Origin: Hymenobacter psychrotolerans DSM 18569
GTDB lineage: Bacteria; Bacteroidota; Bacteroidia; Cytophagales; Hymenobacteraceae
DNA: 64,000 nt
Assembly (NCBI RefSeq): GCF_900142395.1
Contig: NZ_FRAS01000010.1
Coordinates: 62,001-126,000, forward strand
Direction: 5' to 3'
Made by a program: the position numbers and the translations under genes. Shown piece by piece: positions 12,428 to 18,838 of the stretch. Each line of letters starts with the position of its first letter. The stretch's first letter is position 1. The notes beneath the pieces were generated by a model that saw nothing but the letters and a program-made list of their open reading frames with translations, was not told the DNA's origin and made no database searches.

Positions 12428-13036
12428 TTAGTGGGCCGAGGCCGCCAGCTTCTCCAGGGCCGTCTTGAATTCCGGGGTATCGTAGTCGGCCATGCCGTCG
12501 TGGCGGGCGGCTACTTGCCCATCCGGCGCCAGAATGACCGTGGAGGGAATGGAGTTGGAGTCGAACGGGGAAGGCAGCGGGCCGGCGGGGAAGTACACCG
12601 GAAACGTGTAGCCCTGGCGCTTGAGCAGGCCCTGGGCTTTGGCCGGGTTTTCGTCGAGCGAAATCATCACGAAGGCCACCTTCTTCGGGTTCAACTTCTT
12701 GTATAGGGCGTGAATGCCGGGCATCTCGGCCACGCAGGGCGGGCACCAGCTGGCCCACAAATTCACGAACACCACTTTGCCTTTCAGCTCGCTCAGGTTC
12801 GTGCGCTTGCCATCGAGCGTGGTCAGGGGCAGGTTGTGCGGGTAGGCCGCGCCGCCCGTGGGCACGACGGGCGCGGCACCCGGGGGCGCCGCAGCTACCG
12901 GCACGTCGGCCTTCCACAGGCCCGTGGCCAGCAGGCCGCGCTGCAGAAAACCCAGTACCGGCGTACGCAGCGGGGTGAACAGGATCAGGGCAAACAAAGC
13001 CAGCGGCAGCCACTGGGAAAGCGTTTTACGATTCAT
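12428..13036 (-). CDS. TlpA-type membrane-anchored thiol-disulfide oxidoreductase
   Basis: A 202-residue protein with an N-terminal membrane anchor (residues 8-30), a Pro/Ala-rich linker and a periplasmic AhpC/TSA-type thioredoxin domain. The redox site is C98-P-P-C101 in VNLWASWCPPCVAEMPGIHALY; the cis-Pro region is NSIPSTVILAPDGQV. It should reduce disulfides in the envelope, for example during cytochrome c maturation or thiol repair. I start at ATG 13036 (MNRKTLSQW) rather than an in-frame start 11 codons upstream. The inverted repeat at 13070-13089 matches those at the arsR and tauE promoters, so this gene may be regulated with sulfur metabolism. Confidence 0.9.
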   Translation of the reverse strand: MNRKTLSQWLPLALFALILFTPLRTPVLGFLQRGLLATGLWKADVPVAAAPPGAAPVVPTGGAAYPHNLPLTTLDGKRTNLSELKGKVVFVNLWASWCPPCVAEMPGIHALYKKLNPKKVAFVMISLDENPAKAQGLLKRQGYTFPVYFPAGPLPSPFDSNSIPSTVILAPDGQVAARHDGMADYDTPEFKTALEKLAASAH

Positions 13037-13069
13037 GGTCGGGGAATTTGGCAAGGCAACAGTACACAA

Positions 13070-13089
13070 ATGAAAAAACGTTCATGTAT
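13070..13089 (-). promoter_or_regulatory. candidate ArsR operator upstream of tlpA
   Basis: ATGAA at 13070-13074 and TTCAT at 13081-13085 are separated by 6 bases; read on the minus strand it is ATACATGAA-N6-TTCAT. The same word is at 14660-14679 and 15038-15057. It lies 34 bases upstream of the tlpA start, a usual place for a repressor site. Confidence 0.6.
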
Positions 13090-13257
13090 CATGCCTTGCC
13101 CGACGGCCCGGGCTCGACTCTGACGGAGAGGCCATCGGGCATCTGCTCGCTAGCATCTACCGGGCAGGAGGTTACAGAAGGGAAAACACGGGTTTCAAGA
13201 AATCAGGGCAGGCATCCGGGCACGCCGGGGTGCTGCTCAGCTGAGCAGCAGGGTGGT

Positions 13258-14451
13258 TTACAGCATACCCGCCTGTTGTAACCCATAGCCCACCAGAGCC
13301 CCGCCCAGCACCAGCCAGGCCGAGTTGACCTTGTAGCGCAGCAGCAGGCCGGCGCTGACGAGGGCCAGCGCCACCGTCGGCAGGTCGAGTAGGGCTGTGC
13401 GGGCCAGCGTGAGGGATACAGCAGCCATCAGGGCCCAGGAGGCGGCGTTGAGCCCGTCGAGAAACGCGCCGGCCAGCGGCGACTGCCGCAGCTGGGCAAC
13501 GAGCTTGATGCTCAGTCCTACGAAGACGAAGGCGGGCAGGAAAATGCCCGCCGTGGCCACCAGCGCCCCCCGCCAGCCCTGCAGCACGTAGCCCACAAAG
13601 GTGGCCGTCGTGAAGACCGGTCCCGGCGTCACCTGCCCCACCACCACCGCATCCAGCAGCTGCGCCTGCGTCAGCCAGTGGAAACGCTGCACCAGGTCGG
13701 CATCCAGAAATGCCAGCAGCACGTAGCCACTGCCGTACAATACCGAGCCAATTTTGGCGAAGGCCAGCCCCAGCGGCAGCAGCCCCAGCGGCGCGGCGGC
13801 CCCGGCCGTAGCGGGCTGGCCCGGCCCCAGGCCCAGCACCAGCGGCAACAGCGCCAGAACCGCCACCGCGCCCACCAGCTTGAGCAGGGCTGGCGGCACG
13901 GATTTGTGAGCCAGCGTGGGCCAGCGCACGGCCCCCATGACCAAGCCCGCAGCAAAGAGCAGCATCAACTCGTTCATGCCCAGCAGGCCCAGCACCAACG
14001 CCCCTCCCGCCACGATCCTCAGGGGCCAGGTAGTCAGCGCCGAGCGGCCCAGGCTCCAGAGCGCCTGCGCCACCACTGCCACGATGACGGGCTTCACGCC
14101 GTAGAGGACGCCGGTGATAGCCGGCAGCGTACCGAAGCGCACGTAGGCCCACGCAAAGGCCATAACGATGAGCATGGCCGGCAGAATAAAGCAGATACCA
14201 GCCACCAGCAGGCCGGCCCAGCCGCGCCGCGCATACCCGATGTGAATGGCCAGCTCGGTGGAGTTGGGGCCGGGAACCAGGTTGGCGGCGCTAAGCAAGT
14301 CCAGAAACTGCTGCTGCGTGAGCCAGCCCCGGCGGCGTACCACTTCCTCTTCCATGAGGGCCACGTGGGCAGCGGGGCCGCCAAAGGCAGTAGTGCCCAG
14401 GCGCAGAAACAGCAGCGCCAGCTCTGGCAGCGACGTAGATGATACCGACAT
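13258..14451 (-). CDS. chrA: chromate transporter, ChrA (CHR) family
   Basis: A 397-residue inner-membrane protein made of two homologous halves, as in long-chain CHR-family exporters of chromate. The first half has LFLRLGTTAFGGPAAHVALM and LLSAANLVPGPNSTELAIHIGY; the second half repeats these as LAFAKIGSVLYGSGYVLLAFL and DAVVVGQVTPGPVFTTATFVGY. Many hydrophobic segments cover the rest. The start at 14451 (MSVSSTSLPE) is preferred to one 11 codons upstream. It is divergent from arsR and 221 bases upstream of tlpA on the same strand. A perfect palindrome TGCTGCTCAGCTGAGCAGCA follows the stop at 13231-13250. Chromate uses sulfate routes, which fits the sulfur-related neighbours. Confidence 0.93.
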   Translation of the reverse strand: MSVSSTSLPELALLFLRLGTTAFGGPAAHVALMEEEVVRRRGWLTQQQFLDLLSAANLVPGPNSTELAIHIGYARRGWAGLLVAGICFILPAMLIVMAFAWAYVRFGTLPAITGVLYGVKPVIVAVVAQALWSLGRSALTTWPLRIVAGGALVLGLLGMNELMLLFAAGLVMGAVRWPTLAHKSVPPALLKLVGAVAVLALLPLVLGLGPGQPATAGAAAPLGLLPLGLAFAKIGSVLYGSGYVLLAFLDADLVQRFHWLTQAQLLDAVVVGQVTPGPVFTTATFVGYVLQGWRGALVATAGIFLPAFVFVGLSIKLVAQLRQSPLAGAFLDGLNAASWALMAAVSLTLARTALLDLPTVALALVSAGLLLRYKVNSAWLVLGGALVGYGLQQAGML

Positions 14452-14655
14452 GGGATGTTCAGGAAATGCAGGGGTGTACCGCAAGGGGCAGTATGCCGGG
14501 CCGCGGCATACTGCCTCCCGGCAGGTCTGTCACGCGTCCCCACAGGATAAGGCCTGGCGAATGGCTGTAAAATGACTTAAAAGCGGCAATATCTGCCTAT
14601 TCGGACCCTTCTTACCGGAAAATGATACGTGCCGGAACCAAAATCAGGGACAAGC

Positions 14656-14686
14656 TTGTATACATGAACAAATGATCATACATTTG
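14656..14686 (+). promoter_or_regulatory. Bacteroidota-type promoter of arsR overlapped by an ArsR-like operator
   Basis: TTG at 14656-14658, a 20-base spacer, and TACATTTG at 14679-14686 match the Bacteroidota promoter (TTG-N19-21-TAnnTTTG). The operator-like word ATACATGAA-N6-ATCAT fills the spacer (14660-14679), so a bound repressor would block polymerase. The expected transcription start near 14690 leaves only about six bases before the ATG at 14696. Confidence 0.7.
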
Positions 14687-14695
14687 CAACGCCTT

Positions 14696-15013
14696 ATGAC
14701 ACCAACCACCACCTCCGCCGATCTGAACCTGACCACCGAGAAGATGGAGAAGGTGGCCTTTATCCTCAAGACCACGGCCCACCCGACGCGCATTGCCATC
14801 GTGCAGCTGCTCTCCACCCACGAGAGCCAGTCGGTGACGGACATCAGCGAGAAGCTGGGCGTGGAGCAAAGCCTGCTGTCTCACCACCTGACGGGCATGA
14901 AGCTGAAGGGCATCCTGAGCTCCTCGCGTGAAGGCAAAAACATCTTCTACTCGCTGAAGATGCGCGAAGTGGTCGATGTGATTCAGTGCCTGGCCGGCTG
15001 CACGTTCCTGTAA
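14696..15013 (+). CDS. ArsR/SmtB-family transcriptional regulator
   Basis: A 105-residue winged-helix repressor. The core is EKVAFILKTTAHPTRIAIVQLL, the recognition helices SVTDISEKLGVEQSLLSHHLTGMKLKGILSSSREGKNIFYSL, and a C-terminal dimerisation helix. The ELCVC metal site of ArsR/SmtB sensors is absent; the only cysteines are Cys98 and Cys102 in the last helix, so a thiol or persulfide signal is possible. I choose ATG 14696 because the upstream ATG at 14672 lies inside the promoter and operator. It stands directly before the tauE / persulfide dioxygenase operon, whose promoter has the same inverted repeat, and is divergent from chrA. Confidence 0.92.
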   Translation: MTPTTTSADLNLTTEKMEKVAFILKTTAHPTRIAIVQLLSTHESQSVTDISEKLGVEQSLLSHHLTGMKLKGILSSSREGKNIFYSLKMREVVDVIQCLAGCTFL

Positions 15014-15037
15014 CGGGAGCCGGCTTTTTTTACCAAA

Positions 15038-15057
15038 ATACATGAACAATCATTCAT
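15038..15057 (+). promoter_or_regulatory. candidate ArsR operator upstream of the sulfur operon
   Basis: ATACATGAA-N6-TTCAT: ATGAA at 15042-15046 and TTCAT at 15053-15057. It is 27 bases before the tauE start. A further pair of GTTCA half-sites follows at about 15068-15081. TACGTTCA at 15065-15072 is a weak -7 candidate. Confidence 0.65.
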
Positions 15058-15083: not shown

Positions 15084-15902
15084 ATGTACCATATTATCGG
15101 CTACTTCGCGGCAATCTTCATCGGCCTCTCCCTGGGTATCATGGGGGGCGGGGGCTCCATCCTCACCGTGCCCGTGCTGGTGTATCTGATGGGCGTCAGC
15201 CCGGTGCTGAGCACGGCCTACTCGCTGTTCGTGGTGGGTTCCACCTCCGTGGTGGGCGCCTCGGGCTACTTCCGCAAAGGGCTGGTGTCGCTGAAAACGG
15301 CTGTGGTGTTTCTGATTCCCTCGCTGCTGGCCGTGTTTGCGGTGCGCAAGCTGCTCATGCCGGCCATCCCGCACGAGCTGTTTACCCTGGGCAGCCTGGT
15401 CTTTACCAAGGATTTGCTGGTGCTGGTGGCCTTTGCCGTGCTGATGGTGGTAGCCGCGGCCGCCATGATTCGCAGCAAGCAGGCGGAAGATGCGCTGGAC
15501 GAGGAGCTGCACCAGCAGCATTCCTTCAATTACCCGCTGATACTGGGCATTGGGCTGGTAGTGGGCACGCTCACGGGCTTCGTGGGGGCCGGCGGGGGCT
15601 TTCTGATTATTCCGGCTTTAGTGCTGGGCGCGCGCCTGCCCATGAAGCTGGCCGTGGGCACCTCCCTGGCCATCATTGCCCTGAACTCGCTGATCGGCTT
15701 CACCGGCGACCTGAGCGCGGGCACGCCCATTGCCTGGCCGTTTCTGCTCGGCTTTCTGGCCTTTGCCCTCGCGGGCATCGTGCTGGGCACCTACCTGGCA
15801 AGGTTCATTCCGGGCGCCAGGCTCAAGCCGGCCTTCGGGTGGTTTACGCTGGCCATGGGCACGTTTATTCTGCTGCGCGAGCTGGTCTTCAAGCACGCCT
15901 GA
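15084..15902 (+). CDS. TauE/SafE (TSUP) family sulfur-compound exporter
   Basis: A 272-residue inner-membrane permease. The two half-repeats have the family glycine motifs: [22 protein letters not shown] near the N-terminus and [26 protein letters not shown] in the middle. About eight hydrophobic segments are visible. Family members export sulfite, sulfoacetate or other organosulfur anions. As the first gene of the operon with a persulfide dioxygenase, which makes sulfite, and rhodaneses, sulfite export is the likely role. The operator-like site at 15038-15057 suggests control by the adjacent ArsR protein. Confidence 0.93.
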
Positions 15903-15981: not shown

Positions 15982-17337
15982 ATGAAAATCCAGCAGTTCG
16001 AAGACAAGGGCCTGGCCCATTTTTCCTACGCCATCCTGAGCGAGTGCGCCCGCGAAATCGTGCTCATCGACCCCGCCCGCGACCCGCAGCCCTACTACGA
16101 CTACGCCCGGCAGCACGACGCCCGGATTGTGAGCGTCATCGAAACCCACCCCCACGCCGACTTTGTGAGCAGCCACCTGGAAATTGCCCAGGCCACCGGG
16201 GCCATTATCCGCGTGAGCAAGCTGCTAGGCGCGGATTATGCCCACGAAGCCTTCGACGAGGGCCAGCCGTTCACCGTGGGCAAGCTCAGGTTCCGGGCCC
16301 TGAATACGCCCGGCCACTCGCCCGACTCCATCAGCATCGTGGTGAGCCGCGAGGGCCGGGACGAGGCCGTGTTTACCGGTGATACCCTGTTTATCGGCGA
16401 CGTGGGCCGGCCCGACCTGCGCGAGAAGGCCGGCAACCTGACGGCCAAGCGCGAGGAGCTGGCCCGGCAGCTGTACCACTCGCTGCGCGATAAGCTGATG
16501 CCGCTGGCCGGCTCGGTGCTGGTGTATCCGGCCCACGGCGCGGGCTCGCTCTGCGGCAAGGCCCTGAGCGGGGCCAACAGCAGCACCATCGCCGACGAGA
16601 AGTTCGGTAACCCCATGCTGCGCGAAATGAGCGAGGAGGAATTCGTGCGCGAACTGCTACAGGATCAGCCCTTCATTCCCAAATACTTCGGCTACGACGT
16701 GGCCCTGAACAAAGCCGGGGCCCCTGCCTACGCCCCGAGCGTGCAGCAGGTGCCGCGCCTGCAGGCCGACACCGAGTTGGAAGCCGGCATGGTCATGGTC
16801 GATACCCGCCCCGAGGCCGAATTCAAGCAGGGCCATGCGGCAGGGGCCATCAACATCCAGCAGGGCGGCAAGTTTGAAACCTGGCTGGGCTCCATCGTGG
16901 GCCCTGAGGAGCGGTTTTACCTGCTGGCCGCCGACGAGGCCACGCTCGAGGACCTGATTCAGAAAACCGCCAAAATCGGCTACGAAGCCCTGATTCAGGG
17001 CGCGCTGGTGGGTACGCCCGCTACCGAGGCCACGATTCCTCCGCTGGACGTGGACGCTTTCCGCCAGCACCCCGAGAACTACACCATCGTGGACATCCGC
17101 AACGCCACCGAGCACCGCGACGAGCCCATTTTTGCCGGCGCACTAAGCATTCCGCTGCCCGAGCTCCGGGAGCGGGCCCAGGAGATTCCCGCCGGTAAGC
17201 CCGTGGTGGTGCATTGCGCCGGCGGCTACCGCTCGGCGGCCGGCTCCAGCATCGTGGCCGATGCCCTGCCCGAGGATACCGTGTACGACCTAGGCGAGGC
17301 CGTGAAGTCGTTTCAGATGGCGGCCGCCGCGCACTAG
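15982..17337 (+). CDS. persulfide dioxygenase-rhodanese fusion (CstB-like)
   Basis: A 451-residue three-domain enzyme. Residues 1-235 form an ETHE1-like metallo-beta-lactamase domain with H56-P-H58-A-D60 in ETHPHADFVSSH, NTPGHSPDSISI, FTGDTLFIGDVGRPDL and VYPAHGAGSLCG; it oxidises persulfides to sulfite. Residues ~265-345 are a rhodanese fold without a catalytic Cys. Residues ~355-451 are an active-looking rhodanese with C412-A-G-G-Y-R. This order is that of Staphylococcus CstB (dioxygenase, pseudo-rhodanese, rhodanese), so it may turn persulfides into thiosulfate. ATG 15982 begins the domain; the longer frame upstream overlaps tauE and is not real. Second gene of the sulfur operon. Confidence 0.93.
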   Translation: MKIQQFEDKGLAHFSYAILSECAREIVLIDPARDPQPYYDYARQHDARIVSVIETHPHADFVSSHLEIAQATGAIIRVSKLLGADYAHEAFDEGQPFTVGKLRFRALNTPGHSPDSISIVVSREGRDEAVFTGDTLFIGDVGRPDLREKAGNLTAKREELARQLYHSLRDKLMPLAGSVLVYPAHGAGSLCGKALSGANSSTIADEKFGNPMLREMSEEEFVRELLQDQPFIPKYFGYDVALNKAGAPAYAPSVQQVPRLQADTELEAGMVMVDTRPEAEFKQGHAAGAINIQQGGKFETWLGSIVGPEERFYLLAADEATLEDLIQKTAKIGYEALIQGALVGTPATEATIPPLDVDAFRQHPENYTIVDIRNATEHRDEPIFAGALSIPLPELRERAQEIPAGKPVVVHCAGGYRSAAGSSIVADALPEDTVYDLGEAVKSFQMAAAAH

Positions 17338-17417: not shown

Positions 17418-17756
17418 ATGTTTGACTTCCTGAAACCCGCCGCCCCCGCCTACCAGAACCTGACGCCCGCTCAATTTGCCGAAGGGCTGCGTCAGAAAAA
17501 GGCCGTATTGCTGGACGTGCGCCGCCCCGACGAGTTTGCCGGCGGCCACCTGCCCGGGGCGGTGAACATCGACGTGACCAGCCCCGACTTTGCCCGCCGC
17601 GTGGCCGACCTCGACAAAACCAAGTCCACCTACGTGTACTGCCGCAGCGGGGCCCGCTCGGCCACGGCCGCCAGCCAGCTCACCAAAGCCGGCTTTGCCG
17701 ATGTGGCCAACCTGCTGGGCGGCGTGCTCGACTGGCCCCACCCGCTGGTGCGCTAG
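17418..17756 (+). CDS. single-domain rhodanese (sulfurtransferase)
   Basis: A 112-residue cytoplasmic rhodanese. It has LLDVRRPDEFAGGHLPGAVNID and the active loop C75-R-S-G-A-R, with Cys75 as the persulfide-carrying residue. Such proteins shuttle sulfane sulfur between small thiols, thiosulfate and enzymes. The ATG at 17418 (MFDFLKPAAP) is used; an in-frame start 13 codons upstream is less likely. It lies 80 bases after the persulfide dioxygenase fusion and upstream of the YeeE/YedE pair, in one apparent operon for sulfane sulfur handling. Confidence 0.93.
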   Translation: MFDFLKPAAPAYQNLTPAQFAEGLRQKKAVLLDVRRPDEFAGGHLPGAVNIDVTSPDFARRVADLDKTKSTYVYCRSGARSATAASQLTKAGFADVANLLGGVLDWPHPLVR

Positions 17757-17854: not shown

Positions 17855-18415
17855 ATGCTGGAATTACTTCGTCAGCCCTGGCCCTGGTACGTGGCCGGCC
17901 CGCTGATTGGGCTTACGGTGCCCGCCCTGCTGCTGGCGGGCAACAAGGCCCTGGGCATCAGTTCCTCGCTGCGCCACATATGTGCCGCCTGCCTGCCCGC
18001 GGGCATCCCGTTTCTGCAGTACAACTGGCGCAAGGAGGTCTGGAACCTGTGGTTTGTGCTGGGCATCGGCCTGGGCGGCTTTATCGGCTACCGGGTGCTG
18101 GGCCACCCTGATACCATTGCCATTTCCACGGAAACCGTGCGCGACCTGAAAGCGCAGATGGGCCTGACTGACTTTTCGGGGCTGCTGCCCAAGGAGCTGT
18201 TTGCCCTCGAAAACCTCACGAACTGGAAAGGCTGGGTGTTCCTGGTGCTGGGCGGCTTTCTGGTCGGCTTCGGCACGCGCTACGCCGGGGGCTGCACTTC
18301 GGGCCACGCCATTTCGGGCCTGTCCAATCTGCAGTGGGTGTCGCTGGTGGCCGTCATCGGCTTCTTCGTGGGCGGCCTGCTGATGACCTGGGTGTTCTAT
18401 CCGCTGCTGTTCTAA
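17855..18415 (+). CDS. YeeE/YedE-family transporter half (N-terminal partner)
   Basis: A 186-residue membrane protein of the YeeE/YedE group, whose studied member TsuA imports thiosulfate. It has the substrate-channel cysteines of this group in LRHICAACLPAGIPFL and in FGTRYAGGCTSGHAISGLSNL. Five or so hydrophobic stretches are visible. Bacteroidota often split the transporter into two genes; the next gene, 12 bases downstream, provides the other half. Following the dioxygenase and rhodanese genes, it is expected to bring in thiosulfate or another sulfane-sulfur compound. Confidence 0.9.
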   Translation: MLELLRQPWPWYVAGPLIGLTVPALLLAGNKALGISSSLRHICAACLPAGIPFLQYNWRKEVWNLWFVLGIGLGGFIGYRVLGHPDTIAISTETVRDLKAQMGLTDFSGLLPKELFALENLTNWKGWVFLVLGGFLVGFGTRYAGGCTSGHAISGLSNLQWVSLVAVIGFFVGGLLMTWVFYPLLF

Positions 18416-18427
18416 CCTGTTGGCCCC

Positions 18428-18838
18428 ATGAAAAACCTGAAATACCTGGTGCTGGGCGTACTGTTCGGCCTCATCCTCACGAAAAGCGAAGTGGTGAGCT
18501 GGTGGCGCATCCAGGAGATGTTCCGCTTCCAAAGCTTCCACATGTACGGCGTTATCGGCTCGGCCATTCTGGTGGGTCTGATTTCCATTCAGCTTATCAA
18601 GCGCAACCGCCTGAAAACCATCAACGGCGAGGAGATTAAGATTGCCGACAAGCAGTACACCCACGGCACCTGGATTGGCGGTATCCTGTTCGGGCTGGGC
18701 TGGGCCATCACAGGGGCCTGCCCGGGCCCGATGTTCGCCCAGCTGGGCAGCGGCGTGGCCGGCGCAGCCGTAATGCTGCTGGCCGCCCTGGCCGGCACCT
18801 GGACCTACAGCGCCCTGCGCGAAAAGCTCCCGCACTAA
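18428..18838 (+). CDS. DUF6691 / YeeE-YedE transporter half (C-terminal partner)
   Basis: A 136-residue membrane protein with four hydrophobic segments. The signature GTWIGGILFGLGWAITGACPGPMFAQLGSG contains the GxCPGP motif that mirrors the GGCTSGH motif of the partner; together they should form the pore. It begins 12 bases after the preceding gene and is the last gene of the sulfur operon. The family (DUF6691) nearly always accompanies a YeeE/YedE half. Confidence 0.9.
   Translation: MKNLKYLVLGVLFGLILTKSEVVSWWRIQEMFRFQSFHMYGVIGSAILVGLISIQLIKRNRLKTINGEEIKIADKQYTHGTWIGGILFGLGWAITGACPGPMFAQLGSGVAGAAVMLLAALAGTWTYSALREKLPH

Follow-up and report, generated by a model that had tools for sequence, protein, structure and literature searches.

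The arrangement of an arsR gene, a set of sulfur genes downstream of it and a nearby gene for an envelope thioredoxin, tlpA, raises the question of whether a single repressor ties all three together through copies of one operator. The original prediction, which was confined to the window (the whole 64-kb stretch of DNA that was analysed), proposed just this, and placed a 20-base site at each of the three promoters, 17-34 bases upstream of the start codons. All three 20-mers are present at the positions and on the strands it gave (13070-13089 minus, 14660-14679 plus and 15038-15057 plus), with measured gaps of 33, 16 and 26 bases that agree with that range. At a probability of about 0.72, we consider that an ArsR dimer binds the operator at the promoters of arsR, the sulfur operon and tlpA and represses them until sulfane sulfur releases it. 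The sequences directly show the sites and how well they are conserved, together with the gene content, the geometry of the promoters and the terminator-like hairpin; from this DNA anatomy we infer binding, repression, an inducer and what the proteins do. The features are listed in Table 1.

Table 1. Operators, promoter and terminator-like elements and genes of the locus, with its second copy in the source genome (window positions unless a contig locus is named).
Feature	Position	Strand	Description
tlpA	12428..13036	minus	TlpA/ResA-like thioredoxin; N-terminal hydrophobic segment; WASWCPPC
tlpA operator	13066..13089, core 13070-13085 = ATGAACGTTTTTTCAT	minus	33 bases from core to ATG
Putative arsR promoter	14655..14686	plus	-33-like CTTG (14655-14658) and -7 element TACATTTG (14679-14686)
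arsR operator	14660..14679, core 14664-14679 = ATGAACAAATGATCAT	plus	16 bases from core to ATG
arsR	14696..15013	plus	105-residue ArsR/SmtB-family repressor with C98 and C102
Terminator-like hairpin and seven T	14992..15031	plus	overlaps the end of arsR; -20.7 kcal/mol
Sulfur-operon operator	15038..15057, core 15042-15057 = ATGAACAATCATTCAT	plus	26 bases before tauE
tauE	15084..15902	plus	TauE/SafE-family exporter, PF01925
CstB-like protein gene	15982..17337	plus	451 residues; metallo-beta-lactamase and two rhodanese domains
Single-domain rhodanese gene	17418..17756	plus	PF00581
YeeE-like half transporter gene	17855..18415	plus	PF04143
Second YeeE-like half (DUF6691) gene	18428..18838	plus	PF20398 and PF04143
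Second copy (contig C15) of the VIT1-DUF2231-tlpA...arsR-sulfur operon block	L017:9055-16769 and L018:847-5704		RND efflux operon replaces chrA

All three operator cores are 16-base inverted repeats, those of tlpA and tauE reading as perfect ATGAA-N6-TTCAT and that of arsR with ATCAT instead. A scan of the window that allowed two mismatches recovered the three sites and an overlapping reverse reading of one of them, whereas shuffled windows gave a mean of 0.09 matches and none of 100 shuffles reached four. With at most one mismatch, the 64-kb window holds no further match to ATGAA-N6-TTCAT beyond the three sites. The extended operator, ACATGAA-N6-TTCATgT, fits the 12-2-12 inverted repeat of the SmtB/ArsR type, of which AATACCTGAACA-GA-TGTTCAAGTATT is an example (PMC8790569). 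A repeat of the type that marks the ArsR/SmtB family is thus found at the regulator's own promoter.

In the 4.76-Mb draft source genome the exact motif ATGAAC-N5-WTCAT has six matches, which are the three window sites and the three matching positions (tlpA, arsR and tauE) in a paralogous locus on contig C15. The original prediction had staked itself against hits spread randomly through the genome; the motif scan displays no such scatter, all six exact matches lying in the two locus copies. The C15 copy has about 81-89% DNA identity to that of the window and runs VIT1, DUF2231, tlpA, an RND efflux operon, then arsR, tauE and the sulfur genes. Two of its three cores are identical to the window cores, and in its tauE core the arms are unchanged and just the spacer differs. 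The bare short core is not enriched genome-wide (5 matches versus 7 for the reversed control), and the signal therefore resides in position and conservation, not in the count. Allowing one mismatch yields 56 matches against 57 in the control, and of ten such matches with loci nearly all fall inside long open frames; as these matches are at control level and mostly inside genes, no further regulon members are claimed. Both chrA and the RND operon were rejected as operator targets, there being no operator at either start. The original prediction was correct that chrA has no site of its own; the arsR site is 212 bases upstream of the divergent chrA start, but it is located at the arsR promoter.

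The arsR site and the site between arsR and tauE are phylogenetically conserved. Both are present in 13/13 orthologous loci of related genomes. A wider scan of named genomes covered 80 relatives of the regulator, among them 56 Hymenobacter loci, with sites scored over the ten arm bases. The arsR site matches at least 9 of these bases in 49/56 Hymenobacter loci and at least 8 in 55/56 (score 10 in 26 loci, 9 in 23, 8 in six and 7 in one), and the arsR-tauE site matches at least 9 in 55/55 (10 in 42 and 9 in 13), although many of the loci come from close relatives and the counts overstate the number of independent events. Random 90-bp stretches of these loci, with the true sites masked, reach a score of 9 in 0.086% of cases and 10 in 0.011%, a background taken over whole loci that are mostly GC-rich coding DNA, such that AT-rich promoters would give somewhat more chance matches. 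Between loci, identity is 0.90-0.96 in the arms, 0.58-0.59 in the spacer and 0.29-0.38 in the sequence 31-60 bases further upstream. A site bound by a dimer should have just this pattern, with constant arms and a spacer that is free to vary. Every orthologous locus has the operator together with arsR, whether on separate contigs or on a plasmid (L121). Relatives from Pontibacter, with about 44% identity, also retain the site before arsR, with rhodanese genes after it and, in some, CstB-like genes as well. A Saprospiraceae metagenome-assembled genome (MAG; L167) has perfect sites in front of arsR, tauE, a CstB-like gene and a gene resembling type III sulfide:quinone reductase (SQR), and two perfect sites adjoin TACATTTG. 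The source genome has no match to or close relative of the L167 SQR. An SQR gene in G020 was not counted as a target, its site being just 8/10 and at -82. Five Balneolales relatives (L177, L179, L184, L185 and L186), with Ile at the position of C98, have neither the operator nor the operon; this group possibly responds to a different inducer.

The main sigma factor of Bacteroidota recognizes TAnnTTTG at -7 and TTTG near -33 (PMC7366714). The arsR operator occupies the spacer between the CTTG and TACATTTG of the putative arsR promoter, and in most of the aligned loci the arsR site fills the gap between TTG and TAnnTTTG. At tauE, a conserved T(A/T)CATACG stretch directly follows the operator. 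In 52/55 loci the interval from arsR to this operator contains a hairpin and then a run of T. Since this element precedes the second site, arsR appears to be transcribed separately from the sulfur operon, and the two transcripts appear to be co-repressed, each through an operator of its own.

The third target, tlpA, is the most variable. It is found within about 6 kb of arsR in 18 of the 56 Hymenobacter loci. Six of these 18 nearby tlpA genes have their own perfect site at -49, and in three the site is 8/10 and at -42 or -46; another seven are oriented divergently from arsR and share a single operator with it, and two have no site. Six of the seven divergent pairs have a TAnnTTTG element with no more than one mismatch on the tlpA side, always 18 bases away from the operator. 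Beyond this set, the site at -49 is also present in the window, the C15 copy, G015 and G020. The window tlpA 16-mer is identical in the C15 copy and G015 and has one base changed in G020, where the tlpA gene that carries it is about 58 kb away from arsR. The site is absent at tlpA of L118, L125 and G011 (the G011 tlpA is 78% identical), at a second G020 tlpA copy (74%) and at more distant TlpA genes. Control of tlpA throughout Hymenobacter was rejected, given that distant TlpA genes (at most 64% identity) and the G011 orthologue are without the site. These comparisons of promoter sequences point to tlpA as a likely genuine but lineage-variable target, in part of the genus and not universal. 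The proposal of one regulator for arsR, the sulfur operon and tlpA is thus supported by the cross-genome comparison, but membership of tlpA has to be restricted to certain lineages.

The set of tauE, CstB-like and yeeE genes is present in nearly all 56 Hymenobacter loci. The CstB-like protein displays an HPHADF motif and an active-site loop, CAGGYRS, with C412. Its best solved relatives are 3tp9 and 3r2u, the latter being staphylococcal CstB. The protein has the domain composition of a CstB-type persulfide dioxygenase, i.e., a metallo-beta-lactamase domain, two rhodanese domains and a C-terminal active-site cysteine, and the corresponding dioxygenase and sulfurtransferase activities are predicted. 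Sulfur export, as originally proposed for the operon, is in keeping with TauE; for the YeeE-like halves, sulfur import of the kind carried out by SoxT (PMC11582611) is equally possible.

Membership of the regulator in the ArsR/SmtB family is indicated by matches to PF01022 (40.2 bits, cut-off 22) and NF033788 (71.6 bits, cut-off 55), and its structural model (pLDDT 89) matches the fold of SmtB, CadC, SqrR, CzrA and BigR. The cut-off of the BigR equivalog, NF040642, is not reached (57.6 bits versus 155). PADLOC matches to Csa3/CasR were rejected, as they represent merely the common winged-helix fold. The persulfide-sensing ArsR proteins of SSN cluster 4 (BigR, SqrR, HlyU and YgaV) have a cysteine pair formed from alpha-2 and alpha-5 (PMC10509353), which in BigR consists of Cys42 in alpha-2 and Cys108 in alpha-5 (PMC5823870). 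The Hymenobacter regulator does not have this pair: an alpha-2 cysteine occurs in 0/80 regulators and the residue is Q37 in 56/56 Hymenobacter proteins. The disulfide or polysulfide bridge of BigR and SqrR therefore cannot form in the same way. What is conserved is a CxxxC pair, C98 in 75/80 and C102 in 80/80 regulators, with the two cysteines one turn apart where alpha-5 ends (modelled as helix 91-100). Sequence alignments with SqrR end before C102, and an equivalence of C102 with SqrR Cys107 was dropped. The gene neighbourhood is that of SSN cluster 4, with sulfurtransferase, rhodanese and sulfur-transporter genes. We read the regulator as a Bacteroidota variant of the BigR/SqrR kind, with a putative sulfur signal; it is BigR-like by gene content and operator position and outside the BigR subgroup by its sensing residues. 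Somewhat short of an even chance is given to a more specific proposal, that it represents a hitherto undescribed Bacteroidota class of ArsR proteins that sense sulfane sulfur through a one-turn CxxxC dithiol at the end of alpha-5 and not through the alpha-2/alpha-5 bridge of BigR and SqrR, with a regulon joining cytoplasmic persulfide oxidation to an envelope thioredoxin.

A mechanism can be envisaged as follows. The 105-residue ArsR, as a dimer, would bind ACATGAA-N6-TTCATgT at its own promoter, that of tauE-cstB-like-rhodanese-yeeE-DUF6691 and that of tlpA. Bound and reduced, it would block promoter elements read by the main sigma factor. Modification of the C98/C102 thiols by persulfide or polysulfide would lead to release from the DNA and to activity of all three promoters. 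The rhodaneses and the persulfide-dioxygenase-like (CstB-like) enzyme would oxidize sulfur, TauE would export sulfite and the YeeE halves might move thiosulfate or sulfur. TlpA may keep envelope thiols reduced, or may pass sulfur to the transporter; SoxS and SoxT are thought to have such thiol and sulfur-delivery roles in the SoxR system (PMC10451225; PMC11582611). One sensor would thus probably turn on the repressor, the sulfur-detoxification genes and the envelope thioredoxin when toxic sulfur builds up.

The main rival to a sulfur signal is a metalloid one. The same ArsR and the same three operators might respond to a thiophilic metal or metalloid, e.g., As(III), bound to C98/C102 of one or both subunits, and the sulfur genes would then answer metal-caused thiol stress. 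Atypical As(III) sensors do use cysteines from alpha-5 alone (PMC10509353), so C98/C102 could bind a metalloid; CadC, SmtB and CzrA are among the structural neighbours, RND efflux genes and chrA are near some copies of the locus, and acr3 is on C15 of the source genome. However, the alpha-5 As(III) sensors have three alpha-5 cysteine ligands, and only two cysteines are conserved here, a third being found elsewhere (position 51) in 8/56 Hymenobacter proteins. The constant neighbours are sulfur genes and not metal pumps, with chrA in two examined loci (the window and G025/L128), and neither the RND operon nor chrA is preceded by an operator. The acr3 gene is about 40-50 kb from the C15 sites and has no exact operator near it. 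On this balance a metal inducer is unlikely. It is very improbable that the operators belong to another ArsR-family repressor, with the local arsR merely one of its targets. The source genome does contain 16 first-look ArsR-family candidates, 2 of them at E < 1e-20, but the constant pairing of operator and arsR in every orthologous locus, on separate contigs and the plasmid, argues for the local regulator, as does the persistence of the operator with the Pontibacter relatives and its absence from the five Balneolales copies, where the regulator has diverged.

The remaining alternatives concern the sites themselves. With arsR and tauE as true targets, the tlpA site might be a passenger of gene shuffling that has no effect on tlpA, which would be in keeping with the three tlpA genes without it (L118, L125 and G011) and with the weak sites in three loci. 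This is improbable given that the site is perfect and at a fixed distance in diverged copies, including the remote G020 gene, and that spacers vary between lineages around constant arms. Chance similarity or a plain promoter motif is hardly credible. The lack of genome-wide enrichment of the bare core and its AT-richness, a property of promoters, would be expected of such a motif, but all exact matches occupy corresponding positions of two loci, and the two-sided palindromic conservation is distinct from the TAnnTTTG element; for the arsR and tauE sites, the conservation data have already refuted this explanation.

The proposed repression by ArsR with sulfane sulfur as the signal can be compared with known systems. 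Among the closest is the BigR operon of Xylella fastidiosa and Agrobacterium, in which BigR controls Blh and a TauE-type transporter (PMC5823870). The two have in common an ArsR-family repressor at its own promoter, a persulfide-dioxygenase/sulfurtransferase and a TauE-type exporter. They differ in the sensing residues (Cys42/Cys108 in BigR; Q37 with C98/C102 in Hymenobacter) and in the enzyme, Blh being DUF442-ETHE1 whereas that of Hymenobacter is a metallo-beta-lactamase with two rhodanese domains. In addition, the Hymenobacter arsR is set apart from the operon by two operators and a terminator-like hairpin, and tlpA is a further member. SqrR, SoxR and sHdrR (PMC10451225, PMC12423496) are alike in fold, in operon logic, in a YeeE-like transporter (SoxT) and in an envelope thiol-disulfide protein, SoxS, which is included in the SoxR gene cluster (PMC10451225). 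Unlike these, the Hymenobacter regulator does not have both conserved bridging cysteines, and it belongs to another phylum and is found with another enzyme set; no Sox or sHdr genes were seen at the Hymenobacter locus. The cst operon of Staphylococcus aureus (CstR, CstB, TauE and SQR) has a similar three-domain enzyme, TauE and rhodanese genes. CstR is a CsoR-family regulator, whereas that of Hymenobacter is of the ArsR family, and SQR is absent from the Hymenobacter locus. Operators of SmtB, AztR and CzrA display a comparable inverted repeat of the TACMTGAACA-NN-TGTTCAKGTA type over the promoter (PMC8790569), but the Hymenobacter operator serves sulfur genes, and none of the metal-transport genes typical of the SmtB, AztR and CzrA regulons lies under it.

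ArsR-family control of sulfane-sulfur detoxification is known. New here are the Bacteroidota lineage, the cysteine arrangement, the split double-operator layout and the tlpA branch, and no description of a Hymenobacter or Bacteroidota ArsR sulfide regulator of this kind was found in the open-access literature. If the proposed regulation is correct, the operator, the regulon and the candidate sensor site of this locus are open to direct test, with a sensing chemistry predicted to differ from that of BigR and SqrR. For part of the genus, the locus suggests a sulfur-stress response that extends to the upkeep of envelope thiols by TlpA. The motif also leads to sensible genes elsewhere, as with the SQR-like and CstB-like genes of the distant Saprospiraceae genome. 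That genome has another perfect operator (L167:1846-1861) some 200 bases ahead of a gene for an AraC-family regulator (2066-2962).

Several additional features were noted in the copies of the locus. In the window, chrA, which encodes a chromate transporter, is situated between tlpA and arsR (13258-14451); among the loci examined, only one relative (G025/L128) has chrA before arsR at that place, and in the window locus the gene looks like a recent insertion. In the C15 copy, a TehB/TPMT-like SAM methyltransferase gene is inserted between the two YeeE halves (L018:4650-5273). The window copy does not have this gene, and several relatives show a gap of comparable size. Two or three copies of the arsR-sulfur locus are present in several Hymenobacter genomes (L108, L111 and L150; L112, L113 and L154; L116 and L121), and the plasmid-borne copy in H. 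qilianensis suggests mobility.
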